Below, in pieces: positions 5,515-7,138 of a DNA stretch of 34,519 nt (positions are counted from its first letter, which is position 1; every line of letters starts with the position of its first letter). The notes under the pieces were generated by a model. That model was not told the DNA's origin and did not search any database. It was given only the letters and a program-made list of their open reading frames with translations. The position numbers were made by a program, and so were the translations under genes. Origin of the DNA: Spirochaetaceae bacterium (GTDB lineage Bacteria; Spirochaetota; Spirochaetia; B11-G9); assembly GCA_030638735.1 (NCBI GenBank), contig DAOWEB010000027.1, positions 1-34,519 of the forward strand. The letters are read 5' to 3'.

Positions 5515-6057
5515 ATGAAAAAACTGATTTTATTTGGAATTATTATTTTAATGGTTATTCCGGGAGCTTTTGCTCAGTTTAGAATCGATCTGGCAATTGA
5601 TGTACCTGTAAAAATTGGTATTACCGTATCTGACTTTGAAGGTGGATCGACAGATGAATCTATCGATGTATTGGAATTCGGTACATTCCCTGTTCCTGAA
5701 GCACTGTTTGCTTACCAGACATCCCTTGGGCCTGTAAAAATAGGTGGTGGATTACGGGTTTTTTCTCTAATTCTTGAAAGTATAGCCTGGCCCCATATCT
5801 ATACAGAACTTACTTTATCTCCGATTCCCATTGTTATCAATGCAGGAATTGGCGGTGGTGGTTTCATGATGTTTGGACTTTTCAATGATATGAATACAGC
5901 AAACCTATTTATACCGGATATGCATATTGCATATAAATTTGGAGATACCTTCAGACTGGGAATTGGAGCTATGGGGTTTGTAGGCAGTGAAATAGGTCCG
6001 GATGCAAATCCATATATGATCTATCTGACTGGTCGTTTTTCTCTTATCTTCGATTAA
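5515..6057 (+). CDS. Secreted/outer-membrane-like hypothetical protein
   Basis: N-terminal signal peptide MKKLILFGIIILMVIPGAFA, Gly-rich amphipathic beta-strand pattern, RBS aggaggg upstream of the ATG at 5515. Confidence 0.6.
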   Translation: MKKLILFGIIILMVIPGAFAQFRIDLAIDVPVKIGITVSDFEGGSTDESIDVLEFGTFPVPEALFAYQTSLGPVKIGGGLRVFSLILESIAWPHIYTELTLSPIPIVINAGIGGGGFMMFGLFNDMNTANLFIPDMHIAYKFGDTFRLGIGAMGFVGSEIGPDANPYMIYLTGRFSLIFD

Positions 6058-6065
6058 TAAATGAA

Positions 6066-6100
6066 TTAGAACCAATCTTTAATAATATGATTGGTTCTAA
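6066..6100 (+). terminator. Stem-loop, candidate terminator of the secreted-protein gene
   Basis: TTAGAACCAATC (6066-6077) / GATTGGTTCTAA (6089-6100), perfect 12-bp stem, 11-nt loop, just after the stop at 6057. No strong T-tract. Confidence 0.55.
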
Positions 6101-6109
6101 ATAGAGCTA

Positions 6110-6217
6110 TTTGCGATGTACAACATTTTCTACTTTAAAAAGTACCTCTTCTCTAATTGAAGGCTGATACACTACGCAAAATAGCCTTCAAATCCTAAAA
6201 ACAAGACACATCGCAAA
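6110..6217. ncRNA. Branched structured element (candidate RNA leader, small RNA or mini-element) upstream of lysR
   Basis: TTTGCGATGT (6110-6119) pairs perfectly with ACATCGCAAA (6208-6217). It encloses TACTT-TAAA-AAGTA (6131-6144, approx.) and TTGAAGGCT (6157-6165)/AGCCTTCAA (6183-6191). Structure only; no family assigned. Confidence 0.4.
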
Positions 6218-6268
6218 AGGCTGAAATATATTATTGATTAAATTTCTCAGGCAGTATACTTTGATTGT

Positions 6269-7138
6269 ATGAGTTTATCTTCATTACAACTGGATGCATT
6301 TCTGGCAGCGGCAAAATCTCTAAATTTTTCAAGAGCTGCGGAATCTTTGTTTATTACCCAGTCAGCACTTTCCCAGCGAATTAAAAATCTGGAATTAACT
6401 ATGGGGGCAACTTTATTCATACGGGATCCCACACAGATAAAGATAACAGAAATTGGGGAAAAATTACTTGGATATTGTCAGACAAAAGATTCAATGGAAG
6501 ATGAATTATTATTTAACCTTACCTCTAAAGAGGATGGAGAGCTTGCAGGAATTATAAGAATAGGCGCTTTCTCGTCAGTTCTTCGATCTGTAGTAATTCC
6601 CTCTATGAGTTCTCTTTTGCGTAAAAATCCAAAAATTCAATGTGATTTCATTCATGAGGAGACCCCTGCTCTCCCTTCCTTACTGGACAGATCAGAATGC
6701 GACTTTATAATACTGGATTATCCTATGGATTCCTCTTCAATAGAAAAACATCTTCTGGGTTATGAAGAGTATATTGTAATAGAAAGTCAGGAGTATAGTT
6801 GCCCTGAAAATATTTATCTTGATAACTCTCCTGATGATACAGCAACAGAGCAGTTTATTACTGCCCAGGATGAAACAGCTCCAAAATATGAAAGACGTTT
6901 TATGGGTGAAACATATGGAATAATTGCAGGTGTAGAGGCAGGTCTTGGAAGGTCGGTAATGCCCGTACATCTTCTGTCAGGAAGACCTCATTTAAAAAAA
7001 GTTGAGGGTTTTAAACTTTATAAAAGAGAAATAACCCTCCATTATAAAAAACAGAGCTATTATTCCTTGCTTCATAAACAAGCTGTTGAACAATTGACTG
7101 ACAGATGTGGAAAATATCTTGGTTCTCAAACAGAGTAA
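6269..7138 (+). CDS. LysR-family transcriptional regulator, ArgP/LysG (IciA)-like
   Basis: N-terminal HTH LSSLQLDAFLAAAKSLNFSRAAESLFITQSALSQRIKNLELTMGATLFIR. Adjacent to and upstream of argG. Confidence 0.85.
   Translation: MSLSSLQLDAFLAAAKSLNFSRAAESLFITQSALSQRIKNLELTMGATLFIRDPTQIKITEIGEKLLGYCQTKDSMEDELLFNLTSKEDGELAGIIRIGAFSSVLRSVVIPSMSSLLRKNPKIQCDFIHEETPALPSLLDRSECDFIILDYPMDSSSIEKHLLGYEEYIVIESQEYSCPENIYLDNSPDDTATEQFITAQDETAPKYERRFMGETYGIIAGVEAGLGRSVMPVHLLSGRPHLKKVEGFKLYKREITLHYKKQSYYSLLHKQAVEQLTDRCGKYLGSQTE

Follow-up and report, generated by a model that had tools for sequence, protein, structure and literature searches.

A folded element upstream of lysR in a spirochaete is almost certainly one copy of a MITE family confined to a single genus

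Introduction

The small mobile sequences of enterobacteria known as RU are bacterial MITEs, of which RU-1 is 127 bp and RU-3 is 103 bp long (PMC2759123). As described there, they resemble the spirochaete family reported here in being non-coding, multicopy, mostly intergenic sequences of about 100–130 bp with inverted ends. The two differ in their hosts, which are unrelated, and in three features of the spirochaete family: a duplication fixed at 5 bp, a single variable base that separates this duplication from the end repeat, and an end motif that recurs a third time, internally and inverted. The comparison is one of description, not of sequence.

Target duplications of about 5 bp are made by IS1634, IS1380, IS21 and Tn3. 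The spirochaete family shares this duplication length with them, but no such element was found with the ends of the family.

The window analyzed here is a stretch of 34,519 nt from a Spirochaetaceae bacterium (GCA_030638735.1, contig DAOWEB010000027.1, forward strand). A branched, palindromic element upstream of lysR had been marked in a first-pass annotation as a possible riboswitch-like leader, a small RNA or a small mobile element. We conclude with near certainty that positions 6104–6223 hold a MITE, a DNA transposon that is non-autonomous, and that they make up one copy of its family. The basis for this identification is the set of dispersed copies, their boundaries and target duplications, an empty site in a relative, restriction to one genus, and the absence of a consensus fold. 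The family is apparently undescribed, as a brief literature search found no description of it, and it is ordinary in kind.

Results and Discussion

Extent and parts of the element

The edges of the element were derived from full copies, 25 in its own genome and 59 across the genus. The features of the locus, all on the + strand, are as follows.

6066–6100, +: 12-bp stem-loop TTAGAACCAATC / GATTGGTTCTAA where the upstream gene ends; a pre-existing hairpin, separate from the element
6099–6103, +: left target-site duplication, AAATA
6104–6223, +: whole MITE insertion, 118 bp with one variable base on either side; edges set by full copies
6105–6119, +: left terminal repeat, arm A, AGCTATTTGCGATGT; family consensus AGCTTTTTGCGCTGT
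6146–6156, +: internal box CTCTTCTCTAA, at least 90% conserved in most columns of the alignment of 55 copies
6157–6191, +: inner 9-bp hairpin TTGAAGGCT / AGCCTTCAA, restricted to the window copy and its closest sisters
6174–6186, +: internal arm B, ACGCAAAATAGCC in the window copy, GGCGCAAAA(T)AGCC in the family; repeats the end motif a third time, in inverted orientation
6208–6222, +: right terminal repeat, arm C, ACATCGCAAAAGGCT; family form ACATCGCAAAAGCCT
6224–6228, +: right target-site duplication, AAATA
6234–6260, +: lysR promoter-like box TTGATT-N15-TATACT, outside the element; from the alignment of the window, L111 and L084

The outer 10-bp stem noted earlier is exact (TTTGCGATGT at 6110–6119, ACATCGCAAA at 6208–6217), so the limits first given to the element, 6110–6217, do mark inverted repeats; the real unit is slightly wider, 6104–6223, with AAATA flanks. 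The terminal inverted repeats of the window copy (6105–6119/6208–6222) are 15 bp long, imperfect and 87% complementary, and the ends of the family read AGSYTTTTGCGMTGT. In the alignment of 55 copies, the conserved blocks are arm A, the CTCTTCTCTAA box, arm B and arm C, and the intervening stretches are variable; the family carries a conserved CTTCTCTAA box internally. Two inner hairpins had also been claimed. The perfect 9-bp one is present at 6157–6165/6183–6191, is similar in the copies L002 and L003 and is missing from most others; the second amounts to a weak 5-bp stem only.

Most copies are 116–118 bp long, and they are short, non-coding and without a transposase gene. Length variants of 105, 139–141 and 157–210 nt also occur, the long ones mostly holding nested inserts from two other hairpin families.

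Copies and distribution

BLASTN of the window sequence (query 6050–6270) against its own genome, which comprises 4.3 Mb in 431 contigs, gave matches at 25 places on 25 contigs, and a consensus built from complete copies gave 42 matches. This multicopy, dispersed distribution, together with the target-site duplications and the empty site in a relative, upholds the mobile-element reading among those first offered. The family was found in all six genomes of the genus, our own and five others. Outside the genus, a phylum sample of 393 genomes (392 besides our own) yielded one 23-nt partial match only, and the 59 genomes searched as relatives yielded one weak match. The relatives identified through the LysR protein were metagenome bins, and their labels read Spirochaetia, Spirochaetaceae or Spirochaetes bacterium. 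The family consensus was not found among the plasmids of PLSDB. The MITE family is confined to one spirochaete genus.

Target duplications and insertion sites

The AAATA flanks of the window copy form a perfect direct repeat (5/5 match); the final two bases of the upstream stem at 6066–6100 fall within the left one. Across the 25 own-genome copies, the best-supported direct repeat is exactly 5 bp, with 84% agreement per base, and the score drops when a sixth base is added. On each side, a single base stands between the repeat and the conserved AGC...CCT ends. Among 59 full-length copies from the six genomes, the repeats match at 5/5 positions in 36 and at 4/5 in 10; agreement at each position among these 46 ranges from 42 to 46.

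These duplications bear on whether the element could be a REP or IS200-IS605-like single-strand element, or an integron attC site. A short palindromic unit beside a terminator-like hairpin, with repeated internal arms, would suit such an origin. However, 46 of the 59 full copies carry 5-bp duplications, and REP/IS200-IS605 and integron systems are not known to make constant 5-bp target duplications. An attC site is further opposed by the lack of a head-to-tail cassette array, as the 25 places lie on 25 contigs, and we regard this explanation as exceedingly improbable.

At the single bases adjacent to the ends, close copies agree just slightly more often than base composition predicts, so that these bases are, for the most part, apparently not inherited. 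The junctions therefore hint at a cut placed one base beyond the end repeat. Open frames are avoided by the copies: 20 of 68 sites lie in frames of at least 110 codons, compared with 234 of 366 random positions.

For the MITE, we propose that a DDE-type transposase supplied in trans would bind the terminal repeats, with both the class of enzyme and the mobilization in trans being inferred. Insertion at a 5-bp staggered cut would then leave the flanking AAATA duplication, and the landing point would have been the foot of the upstream gene's hairpin, upstream of the lysR promoter.

Folding and covariation

The RNA fold of 6105–6222 on the + strand has an energy of −29.1 kcal/mol, compared with −13.3 ± 2.9 for shuffled sequences (z −5.5; none of 200 as good), and the opposite strand gives a z of −3.1. 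On the aligned family, RNAalifold found 0 consensus pairs over 55 copies. The outer stem is paired in 83.4% of cells, against 83.6% when partners are shuffled, and its columns 3/119 and 12/110 (2/15) fail to pair in 52 and 51 of the 55 copies, respectively. The perfect 10-bp stem of the window needs an A at element position 12, and only three copies pair in this way. Covariation of the outer stem, which had been named as support for an RNA, was not found over the 55 copies.

We compared the arms of each copy with permuted partners. For arms A and B, the mean duplex energy within copies was −16.18, compared with −15.57 ± 0.10 for permuted copies (0 of 2000 permutations as good), whereas for arms A and C, 1998 of 2000 permutations equalled or beat the copies' own pairing. 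The second internal hairpin was also considered as within-copy pairing and rejected, 158 of 2000 permutations being as good. The covariation between A and B is weak and suggestive only, because the copies are related and relatedness could produce it.

A dispersed small-RNA gene, or a structured RNA family spreading as a repeat, would account for the conserved internal CTTCTCTAA box and for A-B complementarity exceeding that of permuted copies. Against it, the outer stem shows no covariation and the second internal hairpin does not exceed the permuted level. Rfam 15 gave no match, and the sequence between the boxes varies freely. The small-RNA reading is therefore very unlikely. The branched fold arises incidentally from the inverted end motifs, A and C being terminal and B internal.

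The slight A-B covariation is not required by a pure end-repeat model and counts against the MITE reading to that extent. In a more novel reading, the family would be moved by an undescribed transposase that reads arm A, the inverted arm B, arm C and the CTTCTCTAA box, cuts one base beyond the end repeat and leaves a non-inherited base at each junction. We consider this unlikely; if it were true, the A-B hairpin would be a recognized structure and not a mere by-product.

The lysR locus

A relative whose LysR is 85% identical (L111) has the same gene pair and is missing the element at the same point, that is, it carries the empty site. When the element and one AAATA are removed from the window, the remainder aligns to L111 through TTGG(T/C)TC, AATA, ATTGATT, GTATACT and ATGAG. 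The lysR loci of two further relatives, L113 and L084, are also without the element. The promoter-like TTGATT-N15-TATACT, common to the window, L111 and L084, lies just before the lysR start and downstream of the insert, so the insertion is likely to be outside the lysR transcript. The element lies between the hairpin at 6066–6100 and the promoter-like box, and it probably leaves the lysR transcript unaltered.

A cis-acting RNA leader of lysR, either a riboswitch or an attenuator, was suggested by the position of the element about 50 nt ahead of the lysR start and by its low folding energy. This suggestion is not supported: the orthologous loci in L111, L113 and L084 are without the element, the leader has no match in Rfam, and the 55 copies give no consensus fold. 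In addition, with the promoter-like box downstream, the lysR transcript should begin past the element. A leader function is accordingly hardly credible.

The 12-bp stem-loop at 6066–6100 had been proposed as a possible end of the upstream transcript. The stem is real but lacks a T-run, and a scan for terminators returned no match there. In L113 and L084, hairpins of other sequence occur at a similar position before lysR, also without a T-run; these pre-lysR hairpins may represent a structure conserved at the 3' end of the upstream gene. The lysR orthologue of another relative (L086, G001:C295:272-1129) is reported with one in-frame TGA.

These results remove a false riboswitch candidate and explain a repeat that recurs in a spirochaete genus, one that is uncultured. 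The MITE should be masked during annotation and RNA-motif searches in the genus; otherwise its intergenic copies, which look folded and number dozens per genome, would mimic a conserved RNA. Its presence or absence also marks insertions between related genomes.

Search for the transposase

The ends of the MITE provide a handle for tracing the transposase. We searched the six genomes of the genus for the domains DDE_Tnp_1, DDE_Tnp_1_3, rve, DDE_Tnp_1_4 and Tn3 (PF01609, PF13612, PF00665, PF13701 and PF01526), and no autonomous element with the MITE ends was found; since these genomes are fragmented bins, the missing partner is weak evidence. Tn3 transposases were not found in the six genomes. 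The PF13701 matches were weak, several falling at loci already scanned.

No transposon-sized element emerged when end motifs as far as 8 kb from each other were paired within the loci analyzed. End-motif scans of 26 transposase loci, which left out one new PF13701 locus, gave nothing clearly above shuffled scores except the MITE copies themselves. One copy in the genome G003 (L098, 1372–1487; duplication TAGCC) overlaps the 3'-terminal part of a transposase frame of the IS1634 type. An IS1634 element near a G003 copy was considered as the parent and rejected, as its own ends differ (TAACCCAAGTTCACC).

Nested hairpin elements in sister copies

A second family of about 42 nt has the layout [NN]-TTAGGATGCATA-[N'N']-CGAGCAG-hairpin-CGACCAG-[NN]. 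It occurs at L013, L023, L130, L131, L158, L186, L207–L211 and other loci, with none in the window. There are 104 pattern matches in our own genome and hundreds across the genus. In 44 of 45 copies, the internal N'N' reads as the reverse complement of the NN beside it (mean 10.7 and maximum 25 in shuffles). The inner stem is swapped wholesale among copies and is usually still self-complementary. These elements form tandem arrays of 42–43 bp and nest both in the MITE and in one another. The layout, which we take to be one of guide, hairpin and cleavage site, would recall REP/IS605 ends, but the guide is variable. The nested hairpins of about 42 nt are a more surprising lead than the MITE itself and deserve their own study.

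Nested inserts of a third kind, about 54 nt long (GCAAGATAAAATGGGCGACACGAAGTGTCGGGGACCCATTCTTAGTCGAAA), are present at L006, L151, L163 and L170. Their hairpin shows a paired change, GACAC/GTGTC versus GATAC/GTATC.
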